53,747 nt of DNA, taken from contig JAKQPD010000388.1 in the NCBI GenBank assembly GCA_029564935.1, forward strand, positions 1 to 53,747. The letters are read 5' to 3'. A model generated the notes under the pieces. The model did no database searches. It was not told the origin of the DNA and was given only the letters and a program-made list of their open reading frames with translations. The translations under genes and the position numbers were made by a program. Each line of letters opens with the position of its first letter. The stretch's first letter is position 1. Shown here in pieces: positions 9,194 to 37,293 of this stretch. Origin of the DNA: Bacteroidota bacterium (GTDB lineage: Bacteria > Bacteroidota > Bacteroidia > Bacteroidales > VadinHA17).

Positions 9194-10105
9194 ATGTTTA
9201 ACAAATTCATCGCTTCAATCCTTCCTTACTTCCCGAAAAACCTTATCTGGATATTTTCCAAGTCATATATATCCGGCAAATCAGTTGACGATGCCATGAG
9301 GGTTTCGAAAGAATTTAACAGCCAGAATATCCTGGTCACCCTTGACGTTCTCGGTGAATTCATAAAAGATCTGGATGAAGCCGGGAAGAATAAACAGGAA
9401 TATCTCGAGCTCATTGATATTACTTTTAAGAACGGGATTAATTGTAATTTTTCAGCCAAACCAACAAGCTTCGGATTGCTTATTGATAAGGAAGCCTGTT
9501 ATCGTCATATGAGAGAAATAGTTGCCAAAGCTGCATCATATAACGGATTCATCAGGATCGACATGGAAGATTCTCCATGTACTACCGCCGAAATTGAACT
9601 ATTCCGCAGGCTGAAGCAGGAATTCCCGTCAAATGTGGGGATCGTTCTGCAGGCTTATCTCAGGAGAACCCTTGATGATCTTAAAGGGCTTGCCGATCTG
9701 AACTCTGAGGCAGCGCCGCTGAGTATACGTCTGTGCAAAGGTATTTATATTGAACCCGAAAAAATTTCATTTAAGAAATACGATGAGATCAATCAGCACT
9801 ACATCGAAGATCTCGAATTCATTTTCAGGAACAGGATACATGTAGGAATTGCCACCCATGATAAAAAGCTTATTGACACCGCCTACAGACTAATTTCACA
9901 ATATAATGTCCCGAAACATCTTTATGAGTTTCAGATGCTTTACGGAGTTACACCGAACCTGAGACAGAGCATTGTGAACAACGGACATTCAATGAGAGTA
10001 TATGTTCCGTTCGGAGAGAAATGGTTCGGCTATTCAACCCGCCGTCTGAAAGAGAATCCGAAAATTGCCGGGCACATTATCAGAGCCTTGTTTGTAAAGG
10101 GCTAA
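9194..10105 (+). CDS. Proline dehydrogenase (monofunctional)
   Basis: FAD-dependent proline dehydrogenase that oxidises proline to pyrroline-5-carboxylate, passing electrons to the quinone pool. The beta-alpha barrel is visible through the strands NILVTLDVLGEF, FIRIDMEDS, GIVLQAYLRRT and LSIRLCKGIY. The C-terminal motif EFQMLYGVTPNLR is the family form of the FAD/substrate site, with the arginine pair YSTRRLKENP near the end. At 303 residues it is the short monofunctional type, without the P5C dehydrogenase domain of PutA. It stands alone: the divergent neighbour is the ECF operon, and a heptamer repeat array begins at the base after the stop codon. Confidence 0.9.
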   Translation: MFNKFIASILPYFPKNLIWIFSKSYISGKSVDDAMRVSKEFNSQNILVTLDVLGEFIKDLDEAGKNKQEYLELIDITFKNGINCNFSAKPTSFGLLIDKEACYRHMREIVAKAASYNGFIRIDMEDSPCTTAEIELFRRLKQEFPSNVGIVLQAYLRRTLDDLKGLADLNSEAAPLSIRLCKGIYIEPEKISFKKYDEINQHYIEDLEFIFRNRIHVGIATHDKKLIDTAYRLISQYNVPKHLYEFQMLYGVTPNLRQSIVNNGHSMRVYVPFGEKWFGYSTRRLKENPKIAGHIIRALFVKG

Positions 10106-10290
10106 GGGCGGCGAGCGGCGAGCGGCGAGCGAGGTTCAGAGAGCACAGGGCGGAGAGCGCAGAGCGCAGTGCACAGGGCGAAGGGCACAGAGCACAGGGC
10201 GAAGGGCACAGAGCGGAGAGCGGAGAACGAAGGGCACAGAGCACAGGGTGGAGAGCGGAGAGGGGTGAGTGATGAGGAATGAGTGGTGAG
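10106..10290. repeat. Degenerate heptamer tandem array
   Basis: About 185 bases of 7-base units such as gcgagcg, gcacaga, gcacagg, gcgaagg and gcggaga, strongly purine-rich on the plus strand, grading into gtgatga-type units. It begins directly after the proline dehydrogenase stop codon and ends just before repeat element A. The open frames across it on both strands come from the repeat and code for nothing recognisable. Confidence 0.85.
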
Positions 10291-10302: not shown

Positions 10303-10626
10303 CCATATTAGAAGTTTTGAGGTTAAAAGTTTCCCCTCCTTTTTAAGGAGGGGTGGCCAGACGCTAAAATCGTCTGACTTGCAGGAATATAAATTGTCTG
10401 GCCGGGGTGGTTAATTAGATTTTGAGGAATTAGTCCACTTCAGCTGAATCCATTTAATGGAATCAGATAAATTCAAAAAGTCTTGGAGGAAGAAAGTTCA
10501 GAAGACAACAAAGTTCAACCACCCCGGCCGGGAAAGGAGAAGTGTAACCATTTCAAAATCAGAAATCCCGGCCACCCCTCCTTAAAAAAAGGAGGGGAAA
10601 CTTTGTTCCCAAAACTCCTGTCAAAG
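10303..10626 (+). mobile_element. DUF559-associated hairpin element, copy A (degenerate)
   Basis: A decayed copy of the element seen intact at 35733-36428. The left end has the palindrome cccctcc/ggagggg (10333-10353), then ggccagac pairing with gtctggcc (10396-10403) and the inner end ggggtggtt. The right end mirrors it with aaccacccc, a ggccggga/tcccggcc hairpin and a second cccctcc/ggagggg palindrome (10575-10597). Outside these, plus-strand tcaaaag-like and gtcaaag sequences are inverted relatives of each other. Between the ends lies a short relic of the DUF559 gene. It fills the gap between two convergent genes together with the heptamer array. Confidence 0.8.
10434..10514 (+). pseudogene. 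Relic of a DUF559 nuclease gene inside element A
   Basis: A 27-codon stretch reads STSAESI, stop, WNQINSK, then SLGGRKFRRQQS. It lines up codon for codon, without gaps, with residues 23-49 of the intact DUF559 protein at 35887-36264 (STSAEAVLWNQLKSK, NLGGRKFRRQQS). One leucine codon has become TAA. Both the N-terminal coding part and everything after QQS, including the catalytic region, are deleted, and the right-end repeat follows directly. It cannot make a functional protein. Confidence 0.85.
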
Positions 10627-14931: not shown

Positions 14932-15813
14932 ATGAAAGCATATGTATTTCCGGGACAGGGAGCACAGTTTCCCGGCATGGGCAGGGATCTGTATGAACGA
15001 TCCGCACTGGCAAAGGATTTATTTGAAACTGCAAATGGCATTCTTGGATTCAGGATCACCGATCTGATGTTCAACGGATCCGGGGATGATCTTAAACAGA
15101 CGAGGGTTACCCAGCCTGCAATTTTCCTTCATTCTGTCATCCTTGCTTCTGTTATTGGCGATGGTTTCAGACCGGACATGGTTGCAGGCCATTCACTCGG
15201 GGAATTCTCAGCCCTTGTTGCAGGCAGATCAATATCATTTGAGGACGGACTTGCACTTGTTTCCAGAAGAGCTATGGCCATGCAGAAAGCCTGTGAAATG
15301 AACCCGTCAACAATGGCTGCCGTGATCGGAACTGATGACAGAATAGTTGAAGAAACCTGTAATGAGATCGGGGAAATAGTGGTTCCGGCTAACTATAACA
15401 GTCCCGGACAGATAGTCATTTCAGGATCAAATGAAGGTATCGATAAGGCTATTGAGGTTCTGAAATCAAAGGGTGCAAAAAGAGCAATAAAGCTTCAGGT
15501 CGGAGGCGCCTTCCATTCTCCGCTTATGGAACCGGCAAGAGCTGAACTTGAGGAAGCGATCAGAAGTACGAACTTCAACGTTCCGGTCTGCCCCGTTTAC
15601 CAGAATGTTGATGCCACTCCTTCATTAGATCCGGAAAAAATTAAAAGCCGGCTTGTTGCACAACTGACATCACCGGTGAGATGGACACAGAGCATTATAA
15701 ATATGATCGCTGACGGTGCAGACAATTTTACAGAAGTCGGCCCGGGATCAGTCCTGCAGGGACTGATAAAAAAGATCAATAAAGACGTAACAACACAGAG
15801 TGCAGTTTTCTGA
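14932..15813 (+). CDS. fabD: Malonyl-CoA:ACP transacylase
   Basis: Transfers malonyl groups from CoA to acyl carrier protein for fatty acid synthesis. FPGQGAQFPGMG opens the chain, the nucleophile serine is in VAGHSLGEFSALVA (about 90), and the catalytic His is in GGAFHSPLM (about 198). The last part, FTEVGPGSVLQGLIKKI, is the usual end. The start chosen is the ATG at 14932 giving MKAYVFPGQG, 7 bases after the folE stop; an upstream in-frame GTG at 14905 would overlap folE and add residues unlike the family. At 293 residues it is normal. Octamer repeats begin soon after the stop codon. Confidence 0.94.
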   Translation: MKAYVFPGQGAQFPGMGRDLYERSALAKDLFETANGILGFRITDLMFNGSGDDLKQTRVTQPAIFLHSVILASVIGDGFRPDMVAGHSLGEFSALVAGRSISFEDGLALVSRRAMAMQKACEMNPSTMAAVIGTDDRIVEETCNEIGEIVVPANYNSPGQIVISGSNEGIDKAIEVLKSKGAKRAIKLQVGGAFHSPLMEPARAELEEAIRSTNFNVPVCPVYQNVDATPSLDPEKIKSRLVAQLTSPVRWTQSIINMIADGADNFTEVGPGSVLQGLIKKINKDVTTQSAVF

Positions 15814-15837
15814 AAGTTACCGCTTCGCCTTTTCGCC

Positions 15838-15908
15838 GCGGTGCCTCTGAGCCTTTACGCCTCTGAGCCTTTACGCCTCTGAGCCTCTGAGCCGCTGCGC
15901 CACTACCC
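15838..15908. repeat. Octamer tandem array, left part
   Basis: Units of 8 bases alternate as gcctctga and gcctttac, giving a 16-base superperiod, and end with gccgctgc gccactac. The array starts about 25 bases after the fabD stop codon and stops where element B begins. The matching array on the other side of element B (16246-16329) has related units. Confidence 0.8.
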
Positions 15909-15910
15909 CT

Positions 15911-16242
15911 TACCCCATAGCTGTCAACTTAACGGAGTTTTGTAGATAAAAGTTTCCCCTCCTTTTTTTAAGGAGGGGTGGACGGGATTGCTAATCTTGA
16001 AATGTTTACAATTGTCCTATTCCCGGCCGGGGTGGTTAAAACGGAATTAGCAAACTTGTACTAATTTCTCCGAACAAAAAAACCACCCCGGCCAGAACAT
16101 CTCTATTTCTGCACATTAGATAATCTTGTGGTCTGGCCACCCCTCCTTGAAAAAAGGAGGGGAAAGTTATTTAGCTACAATCCAGATAATTACAATTGTT
16201 TTCGTTATTATTGTATTGAGGCTTAGGTTGACGGCTATGCCC
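15911..16242 (-). mobile_element. DUF559-associated hairpin element, copy B (no gene, inverted)
   Basis: About 330 bases with the same ends as elements A and C but no nuclease gene. Outer inverted termini are catagctgtcaacttaa (15916-15932) and its relative ending ggttgacggctatg (16226-16239). Palindromes cccctcc/ggagggg lie at 15956-15978 and 16140-16162. Here the left internal hairpin is the cggga/tcccgg type and the right one is the ccagac/gtctgg type, the reverse of A and C. The loop sequences align with those of C when read on the minus strand, so the element is in the opposite orientation. About 50 bases separate the two inner ends. It splits an octamer tandem array. Confidence 0.8.
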
Positions 16243-34914: not shown

Positions 34915-35714
34915 TGAAATTATTTTACAGGAAATACGGCGATGGTCCCCCGCTGATTATACTTCATGGCCTGTACGGATCGTCGGATAACTGGGTGACA
35001 ATAGCAAAAGCAGTCAGCAAAAAATATACTGTCTGCCTTCCGGATCTAAGGAACCACGGTCAGTCGCCTCATAGCGATGTTCATGATTATGACTCCCTCA
35101 GTACAGATATTTTCGAACTTGCTTCAGAACACGGACTTGAAAAATTCTATCTGGCCGGACACAGTATGGGAGGCAAGGCAGCTGCATTTTTCGCCGTTAG
35201 ATGGCCTGAAAAGTTGCTGGGCCTGGTTATAGCCGATATTTCTCCGTTTGCCGCACCTGATATCAGAACACAGGAATATCACCAGCACATTTCAATACTT
35301 AATTCAATTATCGGAACTGATATCTCTTCAGCGGGCACACGCAGTGATGTGGAATTACTTCTGAGGGAAAAGATCACTTCATCAAGGACCAGGGGAATGA
35401 TAATGAAAAATCTCCTGAGGTTGCCGGATAACAGATTCTCCTGGAAGATCAATGCTCCTGCTCTTTTAATGAACATTGAAAAAATCATGAGCGGTTTGCC
35501 AAGGCCGGCAGATAATTATACCTCAGTAACCGGATTTCCGGTCTTATTCCTTAAAGGCGAACACTCAGAATATTTGCCCGGCAGCGATATAAACGACATA
35601 CTTAAGATCTTTCCGGCAGCTGAGTTCCGGATAATCAGTAATGCCGGACACTGGGTCCATTCGGATAATCCTGAAGCCGTGATTAAAGCGCTTGTTGATT
35701 TTGGGGATCACTGA
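34914..35714 (+). CDS. Alpha/beta hydrolase (esterase-like)
   Basis: A 266-residue alpha/beta-fold hydrolase. The oxyanion-side motif HGLYGSSDNW is at about 18, PDLRNHGQSPHS at about 43, the nucleophile serine in AGHSMGGKAA at about 83, and the catalytic His in SNAGHWVHSDNP near 245. The sequence is close to the YbfF/acyl-esterase type that removes acyl groups from small thioesters or esters. No signal peptide. It is coupled to pdxJ through a 1-base overlap, common among Bacteroidota, but its substrate is not known. Element C begins 19 bases after the stop. Confidence 0.87.
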   Translation: MKLFYRKYGDGPPLIILHGLYGSSDNWVTIAKAVSKKYTVCLPDLRNHGQSPHSDVHDYDSLSTDIFELASEHGLEKFYLAGHSMGGKAAAFFAVRWPEKLLGLVIADISPFAAPDIRTQEYHQHISILNSIIGTDISSAGTRSDVELLLREKITSSRTRGMIMKNLLRLPDNRFSWKINAPALLMNIEKIMSGLPRPADNYTSVTGFPVLFLKGEHSEYLPGSDINDILKIFPAAEFRIISNAGHWVHSDNPEAVIKALVDFGDH

Positions 35715-35732
35715 GGATTTTACAGAGTGCAG

Positions 35733-36428
35733 TGAATTGCCGTCAACATTTGGAGTTCTGGGTCCAAAAGTTTCCCCTCCTTTTTTTAAGGAGGGGTGGC
35801 CAGACAACGAAATCATCTAACCTGCAGAAATATAAATAGTCTGGCCGGGGTGGTTTATTCAATTTTTATTTATTACATTTATTCTAATGGACAACAAACA
35901 CCTCTTCAACCGAAAAAGACTTAAGCCTCTAAGATCATATCTGAGAAATAAGTCCACTTCTGCTGAAGCCGTTTTATGGAACCAATTAAAGTCAAAGAAT
36001 CTTGGAGGAAGAAAATTCAGAAGGCAACAAAGTATCGGTAATTATATAGTTGATTTTTATTGTCAATCAGAAAAGTTGATAATTGAGCTTGATGGAGATC
36101 CTCATGGGGATTCAATTCAGATTCAGAAAGATATTACCAGGGACAAATATCTTGAAGCATTAGGATTCACTGTGCTCAGGTTTGAGAACAGGTTTGTGTT
36201 TCAGGAACCCGAAATTGTTCTGAATGAGATAAGGAAGGGTTTTCGAAAAGAGATTAAGTTTTGATAAATAAACCACCCCGGCCGGGAAAGCAGAAATGTA
36301 AATATTTCAAAATCGACAATCCCGGCCACCCCTCCTTTAAAAGGAGGGGAAACTTATTTATTTATAATTCAGATAATTACAGAGTTTTCGCTATTAAAAT
36401 ATCCCTTAAGCTGACAGCTATGGGGTAC
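35733..36428 (+). mobile_element. DUF559-associated hairpin element, copy C (intact gene)
   Basis: The complete copy of the repeat family, about 700 bases, between the convergent genes for the hydrolase and uridine kinase. Outer termini are a gccgtcaac segment (35739-35747) and an inverted gctgacagctatgggg (36410-36425). Each end has a cccctcc/ggagggg palindrome (35774-35796 and 36329-36349), then a long-loop hairpin: ggccagac/gtctggcc on the left and ggccggga/tcccggcc on the right. Inner ends are ggggtggtt and aaccacccc. The hairpin loops match those of copies A and B, so the structure, not just the stems, is conserved. The DUF559 gene is the only cargo. No target-site duplication was recognised. 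Confidence 0.82.
35887..36264 (+). CDS. DUF559 PD-(D/E)XK endonuclease-like protein
   Basis: A 125-residue protein of the DUF559/Vsr-like nuclease superfamily. Predicted active-site residues are Asp56 in IVDFYC and the Glu67-x-Asp69 pair in LIIELDGDPHG. The N-terminal STSAEAVLW (about 23-31), GRKFRRQQSIG (41-51) and the C-terminal RDKYLEALGFTVLRFENRFVF are the conserved helix and strands of the family. There is no transposase, DNA-binding or methylase partner. It sits alone inside element C, like an orphan homing- or repair-type nuclease. Whether it mobilises the element is inference; an unrelated host role in DNA repair is also possible. Confidence 0.85.
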   Translation: MDNKHLFNRKRLKPLRSYLRNKSTSAEAVLWNQLKSKNLGGRKFRRQQSIGNYIVDFYCQSEKLIIELDGDPHGDSIQIQKDITRDKYLEALGFTVLRFENRFVFQEPEIVLNEIRKGFRKEIKF

Positions 36429-36436
36429 AGGGTTTG

Positions 36437-37042
36437 CTAAAGATGCTTTTCAAGAAGGGAGATAATCACTCCGATACCAACTTCATTCTCGCCTCCGCCG
36501 GGGATAATGATGTCGGCATATCTCTTTGATGGTTCAATAAATTGCAGGTGAGAGGGTTTAACCGTATCGTGGTACCGCTGAAGAACCATCTGTACAGTCC
36601 TTCCCCGTTCAATGATATCCCTCTGTATAACCCTTCCCAGCCTGTCGTCAGCATCAGCATCAACATAAACCTTGATATCGAGCATATTGCGAAGGTCGGG
36701 ATCAGTCAGGATCAGAATACCTTCGACAAGTATGACTTTCGCAGGTCCCATGGTAATTGTCTCCTCCGCTCTGAGACAGGTGAGGTAAGAATATACCGGC
36801 ATTTTAATTGTATGACCCTTTTTAAGCTCATTAAGATGACTTACCAGAAGAGGGAACTCCACAGAATCGGGATGATCAAAATTTATCTTCTGCCTTTCTT
36901 CAATCGGTATATGGCCGTTATCCCTGTAATATGCATCCTGGGGGATGACAATCACTTCTCCATCACTGAATTCCTTTACCAGTTTATTTACTACGGTAGT
37001 TTTTCCCGAACCTGTTCCTCCTGCTATTCCTACAATGAGCAT
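36437..37042 (-). CDS. udk: Uridine kinase
   Basis: Phosphorylates uridine and cytidine in pyrimidine salvage. The P-loop GIAGGTGSGKTTVVNKL is at about 5-21; PQDAYYRDNGHIP (about 37) and INFDHPDSVEFPLL carry the nucleoside-binding residues; ILVEGILILTDPDLRNMLDIKVYVD is the Walker B area, and RVIQRDIIERGRT holds the lid arginines. At 201 residues it matches the bacterial enzyme. It stands alone, with element C at its 3' side and nonamer arrays in the divergent gap to manA. A -7 box at 37074-37081 is likely its promoter. Confidence 0.95.
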   Translation of the reverse strand: MLIVGIAGGTGSGKTTVVNKLVKEFSDGEVIVIPQDAYYRDNGHIPIEERQKINFDHPDSVEFPLLVSHLNELKKGHTIKMPVYSYLTCLRAEETITMGPAKVILVEGILILTDPDLRNMLDIKVYVDADADDRLGRVIQRDIIERGRTVQMVLQRYHDTVKPSHLQFIEPSKRYADIIIPGGGENEVGIGVIISLLEKHL

Positions 37043-37073: not shown

Positions 37074-37081
37074 CAAAAATA
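37074..37081 (-). promoter_or_regulatory. Possible -7 box of udk
   Basis: Minus strand TATTTTTG fits TAnnTTTG, about 32 bases before the udk start. The -33 region falls in the first nonamer units, so the repeat array lies directly behind this promoter. Confidence 0.35.
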
Positions 37082-37088
37082 GTAAAAA

Positions 37089-37260
37089 GTGCCTACAGTG
37101 CCTACAGTTCATAAAGTTCATAAAGTTCATAAAGTTCATAAAGTTCATAAAGTTACAGGTTCATGGTCCCGTAACACTTATAACTTCATGCACTTTAGCT
37201 CACTCTAGGCACTTTAGGCACTTTAGGCACTTTAGGCACTTTAGGCACTTTAGGCACTTT
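37089..37260. repeat. Nonamer tandem arrays between udk and manA
   Basis: Three sets of 9-base units: gtgcctaca twice (37089-37106), gttcataaa five times (37107-37151) and aggcacttt six times (37207-37260), with a 55-base unique spacer before the last set. The first set reversed (tgtaggcac) resembles the last set, so the outer parts are inverted relative to each other and could pair into a long hairpin. It occupies the divergent gap, the only array here not between convergent genes. Confidence 0.88.
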
Positions 37261-37293
37261 ACATACTTCAGGTACTAACTATTTCGAACCAAT

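Follow-up and report, generated by a model that had tools for sequence, protein, structure and literature searches.

A hairpin-framed DUF559 nuclease gene as probable cargo of an IS4-type cassette in a Bacteroidota genome

A contig of 53,747 bp from a Bacteroidales bacterium of the VadinHA17 lineage (GenBank assembly GCA_029564935.1), referred to below in its full length as the window, carries a 688-bp element (35735-36422) in which a DUF559 gene is enclosed by paired C-rich hairpins and, outside these, by terminal repeats of the IS4-family type. Copies of this element are bounded by duplicated target sequences, the site occupied in the window is empty in relatives, and DUF559 genes of other Bacteroidota are statistically linked to hairpin modules of their own. 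In our opinion, it is rather probable that the element consists of two nested layers, namely an IS4-type cassette that would be moved in trans and a DUF559 core that would act on its own hairpin modules. A wider reading, to which we give slightly less than an even chance, would make DUF559 nucleases the drivers of a widespread and undescribed class of C-rich hairpin repeats, similar to REP/RAYT systems, with a hydrolytic endonuclease replacing the transposase, clade-specific modules, REPIN-like doublets and in-frame insertion; this class would occur in Bacteroidota and on plasmids of Cyanobacteriota, Deinococcota and Sphingomonas, and would be present in the window as cargo of an IS4-type cassette.

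Anatomy and mobility of the window element

The element is located in the intergenic region between an alpha/beta-hydrolase-like gene and a uridine-kinase-like gene (udk), both named by inspection. From the outside to the inside, each end consists of an outer repeat, hairpin 1, hairpin 2 with a long loop and a GGGGTGG/CCACCCC box. On the left, these are a degenerate terminal inverted repeat of the IS4-family type (35735-35751, forward strand; pattern published in PMC2266710, available text), hairpin 1 (CCCCTCC/GGAGGGG, 35774-35796), hairpin 2 (GGCCAGAC/GTCTGGCC, 35798-35846) and the box GGGGTGG (35847-35853). The gene, encoding 125 aa with a predicted Vsr/EDxHD-type endonuclease fold, occupies 35887-36264 and is followed by the box CCACCCC (36273-36279), which forms with the left box part of a 17-bp inverted repeat, by the right hairpin 2 (GGCCGGGA/TCCCGGCC, 36280-36327) and by the right hairpin 1 (CCCCTCC/GGAGGGG, 36329-36349). 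All of these features are given on the forward strand, and the right outer repeat (36406-36422), recognised by comparison with the genome consensus, lies on the reverse strand. The outer repeats of this copy are 17 bp long and each has 2 mismatches against the 13-bp core of the consensus. They are bordered by a probable target-site duplication, gagtgcagtg at 35725-35734 and gggtacaggg at 36423-36432, identical by eye at 7 of 10 positions.

The hairpins 1 were located by pattern search and folding, and the hairpins 2 by sequence and folding. When folded as single-stranded DNA, the two ends gave z values of -4.2 and -4.4, and 0 and 1 of 200 shuffled sequences, respectively, folded at least equally well. 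Six CCCCTCC..GGAGGGG palindromes are present in the window, compared with a mean of 0.00 in 100 dinucleotide shuffles; 125 were counted genome-wide, and the reversed pattern used as a control was found 0 times. Besides the DUF559 gene, the only ORF of at least 80 aa that overlaps 35735-36422 is one of 83 aa on the opposite strand (35565-35816), and neither encodes a transposase. An Rfam search gave a single match with E 0.46, far under the gathering score of the family, and a PADLOC search a single partial match, to DpdF (E=1e-5). Intergenic low-complexity short tandem runs are situated near the window elements at 10080-10280, 15800-15910 and 37080-37265. The initial annotation had described an intact DUF559 gene between two complex ends, each with the palindrome and a second long-loop hairpin, inverted outer termini, the lack of a transposase and two other copies in the window. 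All of these descriptions hold, and the termini, real and degenerate, which had been left unnamed, can now be assigned to the IS4-family type.

One of the two other copies (10333-10597, forward strand) is a sister element with an internally deleted DUF559 gene, of which a piece corresponding to 35942-36033 remains, and with outer ends that were not recognised. The other (15916-16239, reverse strand) is gene-less and has both outer terminal repeats; its hairpins are at 15956-15978 and 16140-16162, and within these outer hairpin bounds (15956-16162) the inner boxes are separated by 47 bp.

Comparison of 25 window proteins with 80 kb of the genome G013 showed that 24 of them match in window order over approximately 40 kb, and one large protein hits a paralogue of a neighbour. 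All three window elements are missing from this colinear region: the window has 528, 516 and 722 bp between the flanking genes, compared with about 117, 13 and 122 bp, measured between alignment ends, in G013. Neither the CCCCTCC palindrome nor an exact core of the terminal repeat was found in these 80 kb. The hydrolase-udk intergenic region was fully read in 10 relatives, and the element was absent in 10 of 10. A 241-aa ORF is present between the two genes in nine relatives (L150-L164) and is missing both in the window's genome, G000 (35714-36437), and in G013; the partial locus of G007 contains an unrelated C-rich repeat downstream of udk.

In G020 (L059, 1200-2200; G020:C24), leuS contains a DUF559 element with C-rich ends that lies in frame, the open frame reaching 1086 aa. 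In G031 and G033, the two other genomes of the family in which leuS was found, the gene is free of such an element; the junction is not fixed to the base, because the relatives differ in that loop. The empty sites, the leuS insertion and the coexistence of gene-bearing and gene-less copies support the mobility of the window element, which had been claimed in the initial annotation, and argue against the possibility that every copy sits at one orthologous position in all relatives.

The DUF559 nuclease and its C-rich modules

The 125-aa product belongs to DUF559 (PF04480, E=1e-34) and evolves under purifying selection, with dN/dS of 0.07-0.19 in 8 of 11 pairs (the other 3 being saturated) and of 0.17 between two intact type-A copies of the window's genome. 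The residues invariant in 49 sequences include E27, D56, E67, H73, D82 and R85. The predicted structure (mean pLDDT 84) is best matched by NGO0050 of Neisseria (3hrl, E=2e-8) and also by I-Bth0305I (3r3p, E=2.8e-4), a representative of the EDxHD homing family according to the available text of PMC3943268; the match to Vsr is weak (1cw0, E=0.075). In a search with the sequence profile, only 3hrl and 3r3p (E=6e-5) passed 0.001. To our knowledge, hydrolytic nucleases with a fold of the Vsr/EDxHD type hydrolyse DNA and do not join it; therefore, joining would have to be carried out by host functions.

The framing of DUF559 genes by symmetrical ends was scored as the best match of the upstream flank with the reverse complement of the downstream flank, with a cut-off of 13. 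Full flanks were available for 114 of 138 DUF559 genes, all from Bacteroidota, and for 216 control genes. The cut-off was reached by 85 of 114 DUF559 genes (median 16) and by 9 of 216 controls (median 9), and among the nine are one gene that was counted at two loci, a stretch of low complexity and the flank of the window's DUF559 gene itself, which was reached via a different ORF. The objection considered in the initial annotation, that the ends might occur equally often beside unrelated genes, is correct insofar as most copies have no gene, but it does not agree with the rarity of framing on both sides among the controls. In an earlier set of 50 genes, the median score with the own partner was 17.5, compared with 9 for partners of other genes, 10 for the direct orientation and 9 for shuffled sequences. 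The own downstream end was the single best partner of the upstream end in only 15 of 50 cases, since genes of the same clade share modules.

After removal of loci duplicated between collections, 75 framed genes were kept, and the similarity of their modules tracks the similarity of the proteins (Mantel r 0.563, permutation maximum 0.170, p<=0.0005, n=75). Inspection by eye showed that most modules are built in a common way, from a C box, a short spacer and a C/G hairpin. Both neighbours are shared by 63 of 9316 pairs of DUF559 loci, duplicate loci included, versus 114 of 351 pairs for udk. Judging from these comparisons, the DUF559 core with its clade-specific C-rich modules is a layer separate from, and more general than, the IS4-type cassette.

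Gene-less copies of modules were studied in two other DUF559 clades by counting them in 31 genomes, with gene presence judged by eye. Module copies are more numerous where the gene of the clade is present (Mann-Whitney p=5e-4 and 1.2e-3). As exceptions, 13 (G010) and 9 (G009) copies were found without the gene of one clade, and 17 (G000) and 15 (G006) without that of the other. In the first clade, 19 of 20 fetched sites are doublets in inverted orientation, whose outer ends are separated by 111-142 bp; 14 of these 20 sites had been preselected as pairs, and among the remaining 6 doublets were found in 5 (hairpins by eye, ends by script). In the second clade, whose sites were not selected by pairing, 14 of 20 passed a strict doublet test. 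No IS4-type ends were detected at these 40 loci of the doublet clades, and target duplications did not exceed chance (1/27 with 1.41 expected and 2/14 with 2.04 expected in the two clades). One stem pair of the first-clade hairpin was G-C in 73, A-T in 37, A-C in 2 and G-T in 0 of 112 matches counted by hand, with a search pattern that permitted all four combinations; these matches are copies rather than independent events.

Outside Bacteroidota, 37 plasmid records with DUF559 matches were obtained and 16 of them opened; one, in which DUF559 is a domain of a large protein, was excluded. Symmetrical ends with a score of at least 13 were found at 8 of the 15 loci, in Picosynechococcus (2), Pseudanabaena (1), Deinococcus (2) and Sphingomonas (3, among which L382 was counted with the upstream flank widened by 150 bp); 7 of 15 loci are unframed, and five neighbouring control genes scored 8-11. 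Two Deinococcus plasmids (L375, L376) have similar hydroxyphenylacetate gene clusters, with the framed gene in a different gap of each. In a single Sphingomonas strain, one framed DUF559 gene was found on each of three plasmids (L374, L382, L384), and the insertion sites are between sufB and sufC, between transhydrogenase subunits, and between a GatB/YqeY-domain gene and dnaG. On a Synechocystis plasmid (L370), a DUF559 frame overlaps a neighbouring frame beside the BREX gene pglX, as if inserted there. Downstream of the DUF559 frame of Sinorhizobium (L377), there are C-rich palindromes which we take to resemble the RIME1 repeats of rhizobia. Viral contigs yielded two DUF559 loci at 42-43% identity.

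The E. coli homologue ycjD has C-rich repeats on one side and no symmetrical ends. No clean empty site was accepted for ycjD, both opened strains without it having another gene block in its place. In the tkt-ypfG gap (L195, 2500-2541; L282-L286), a C-rich repeat is found in some E. coli strains, and repeats which we presume to be BIME-like in others, including a K-12 strain; this repeat was rejected as a clean insertion, since it replaces the BIME-like stretch (6 strains).

The main rival to a nuclease acting on its own modules is that DUF559 is a mere passenger, or else a resident gene retained for a function of its own (such as Vsr-like repair in conjunction with a methyltransferase), and that another enzyme spreads the modules. 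The four genomes in which modules persist where the gene of the clade was not found (G000, G006, G009 and G010) agree with this explanation, and so does E. coli, where the fabI-ycjD-sapF stretch is covered by at least 80% in at least 3333 of 5426 genomes. However, neither end sequences that track their own protein clade across genera nor framing in most of the genes examined would be expected of a passenger, and we therefore consider this role possible and rather unlikely.

Gene-less copies, IS4-type ends and the question of the mover

When the 15.9-kb copy was used as a blastn query, at least 112 rows were obtained, at least 35 of which, the query included, are at least 180 nt long (hand count), and the window copy has at least 34 gene-less sisters in the genome; the numbers of sister copies are lower bounds, because the search scored 40 of 101 candidates. 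Loops as well as stems are conserved among the copies, with a mean column identity of 80% in 28 rows. The initial annotation had noticed this conservation and explained it by selection on the folded form or by recent common origin. Since the rows are copies of one element from one genome, the conservation of loops alone shows common origin rather than selection.

Interiors were mapped in 30 copies, obtained from 33 anchored ones by subtraction of 1 duplicate anchor and 2 gene-bearing copies. In 24 of the 30, the interior maps to the DUF559 gene (p<0.05 versus shuffles), mostly onto 35940-35976 of the forward strand, a stretch matched by the interior, about 48 bp long, of most gene-less copies, and in 28 of 30 the orientation is consistent with the end types. 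Longer pieces of the gene are retained in 3 copies, including the 10.3-kb one, and end at 36032-36033. The copies without the gene thus appear to have arisen from the gene-bearing element by internal deletion. At least three palindromes were found in 8 of 9 genomes with a type-A gene or remnant, the gene's own ends being included in the count, versus 0 of 22 genomes without it (Fisher p=1.1e-6); the ninth genome, G005, has none.

Outside their hairpins, the copies end in a common terminal repeat with the consensus CATAGCCGTCAACTTAA. In the available text of PMC2266710, the IS231 subgroup of the IS4 family is described as having ends CAT-------AA--TAA and direct repeats of 10-12 bp and as being almost confined to Firmicutes, and the ISH8 subgroup as having ends CAT-----------T and 10-bp direct repeats. 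Consensus copies match the IS231 pattern (table 1 of the same source), the window's own ends being degenerate, and the ISH8-type pattern given there fits the consensus too. The host belongs to Bacteroidota, outside the Firmicutes range of the IS231 subgroup proper. The assignment of the outer ends to the IS4 family is well supported, whereas, because of this range and the ISH8 fit, that to the IS231 subgroup is not.

Duplications were sought in 32 copies, 9 of which were dropped for lack of a recognisable end. Exact duplications of at least 5 bp within 3 bp of the ends were found in 10 of the 23 others, whereas 200 shuffles gave 0.9 such copies on average and at most 4. The longest duplication is 11 bp; the gene-bearing window copy, with its imperfect flanks (7/10 by eye), is not among the ten. 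A complete 1632-bp IS4-family element with the same ends was found in G017, a genome of the same genus (L318, 575-2206; G017:C197). Its transposase matches the NCBIfam IS4-family model (E=7e-51) and Pfam DDE_Tnp_1 (E=1.5e-22) and has the Y-2-R-3-E-6-K motif. In the 441 contigs of the window's genome, no IS4 transposase with cassette-type ends was found, the only match to PF01609 (DDE_Tnp_1) having other flanks. Insertion sequences are often missing from fragmented assemblies.

Further small elements with the same ends were fetched, namely four with one palindrome (135-136 bp) and three with neither palindrome nor gene (100-187 bp). The four (L320-L323, all in the window's genome) combine the outer repeats with one CCCCTCC palindrome, giving the appearance that the DUF559 core has gone and left one of its two palindromes behind; they may be either ancestral empty sites of the core or recombination products of its two palindromes. 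Among 147 DUF559 loci or remnants, at least one IS4-type end within 400 bp was found at 12, of which 8 belong to the window clade and 4 to others (clades by eye). Each of the latter (L103, L094, L219 and L247) has one IS4-type end at a distance of at most 400 bp from the gene, which may be a chance neighbour or may mark a further nested cassette.

Owing to the terminal repeats, the duplications of about 10 bp and the full IS4 element with the same ends in a congener, the spread of the window copy and of the sisters without the gene is most likely explained by a cassette on which an IS4-type transposase, and not DUF559, acted in trans. The suggestion of the initial annotation that the DUF559 protein may move the window's repeats is consequently disfavoured, the outer ends and duplications being those of an IS4-family DDE transposon. 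Its extended form, in which DUF559 moved everything, the gene-less window copies included, would fit the gene piece kept in most of these copies and the abundance of palindromes in genomes with a type-A gene or remnant, even with the own ends counted. Nevertheless, we consider it improbable: IS4-type repeats and duplications bound copies of the window type, three small elements with the same ends have neither gene nor palindrome, and the two other DUF559 clades, which are without IS4 ends, show no duplication.

It might also be supposed that the modules are REPs mobilised by Y1 transposases (RAYT/IS200-type) and that DUF559 hitch-hikes on them. Y1_Tnp matches are indeed present in 28 of 31 genomes searched, and 13 of 19 Y1 genes with full flanks have inverted repeats on both sides. 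The ends of the Y1 genes are unrelated, however: in comparisons of their 13 modules with the 75 DUF559 modules the best scores are 6-9, and 73 of the latter reach 13 or more against another DUF559 module. On these grounds of sequence, Y1 transposase is disfavoured as the mover and this explanation is very improbable. That a lone gene is merely accompanied by ordinary bidirectional terminators, the symmetry of the hairpins being meaningless, is hardly credible and is refuted as a full explanation by the rarity of such symmetry among control genes, the 125 repeats of the palindrome, with copies bearing outer ends and duplications, and the in-frame insertion in leuS; there are indeed intergenic stem-loops beside T runs, and termination of transcription by them is possible as a side effect.

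The nested arrangement, known systems and significance

In the proposed two-layer arrangement, the outer layer would be a non-autonomous cassette with IS231-like repeats, on which an IS4-type DDE transposase would act in trans with duplication of about 10 bp of the target. In this way, the window copy would have arrived at its site, and its internally deleted, gene-less sisters would have multiplied. In the inner layer, the DUF559 endonuclease most likely would recognise its own modules and cut or nick them, probably as hairpins or cruciforms, after which host repair would copy or delete the module-bounded DNA, leading to spread or conversion. Framed genes, doublets and the lack of target duplication would result from such cutting and host repair. 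Both the action of the nuclease on the modules and the role of the IS4 transposase as the mover we infer from the sequences.

The outer layer resembles known mobile insertion cassettes and MITEs of the IS4-family/IS231-like kind, of which MIC231, an IS231-like mobile insertion cassette, is an example. Common features are ends of the CAT-------AA--TAA type, duplications of about 10 bp, the absence of an internal transposase, an unrelated cargo gene and a full IS4 element in a congener. Differences are that the window cargo is itself a hairpin-ended DUF559 core, that no cognate transposase was found in the fragmented assembly of the window's genome, and that IS231 proper is reported to be almost confined to Firmicutes (PMC2266710, available text).

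The inner layer may be compared with REP/RAYT and REPIN systems, in which a small gene is also flanked by inverted palindromic modules whose type tracks the protein. The gene-less inverted doublets with no target duplication found in the two other DUF559 clades are a further likeness. In contrast to these systems, the protein is a Vsr/EDxHD-type nuclease (PF04480) and not a Y1 HUH tyrosine transposase, and there is no relation between DUF559 modules and the modules of Y1 genes tested from the same genomes. The REP/RAYT analogy, drawn already in the initial annotation for the window's repeats, is apt for DUF559 genes in general, with regard to framing, clade-tracking modules and doublets. By this analogy, the chances are about even that DUF559 has for the inner modules the driving role that RAYT has for REPs.

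Among proteins with a tested function, I-Bth0305I is the nearest structure by both profile and fold. It is likewise encoded by a small nuclease gene, and the DUF559 relative in frame within the conserved gene leuS is another similarity. However, DUF559 loci are dispersed over many unrelated sites instead of one allelic site, unlike EDxHD homing endonucleases, no intron or intein was seen, and the 125-aa protein hardly exceeds a catalytic domain. Caulobacter VsrA and E. coli YcjD share the Pfam domain, and Vsr belongs to the same fold superfamily with a weak match. Palindromic repeats inside genes, such as REPs and Rickettsia palindromic elements, have been described (PMC3733652, available text) and are similar to the leuS case in their in-frame insertion within a coding gene, but the repeats are described there without a nuclease gene. 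In the literature found, judged mostly from titles and the openings of abstracts, no link of DUF559 to such repeats was noticed; DUF559 is not mentioned in the available text of PMC5771137 and occurs in that of PMC12907096. As far as these searches reach, the DUF559-module system is undescribed, and the IS4-type cassette is of an already known kind.

Many bacterial genomes contain C-rich palindromic repeats for which no mover is known. If DUF559 is the partner of such repeats, a testable role would be obtained for an uncharacterised family that is present even in E. coli K-12 (ycjD), and the range of mobile elements would include a class driven by a simple nuclease. The window also illustrates how one mobile unit may be carried within another.
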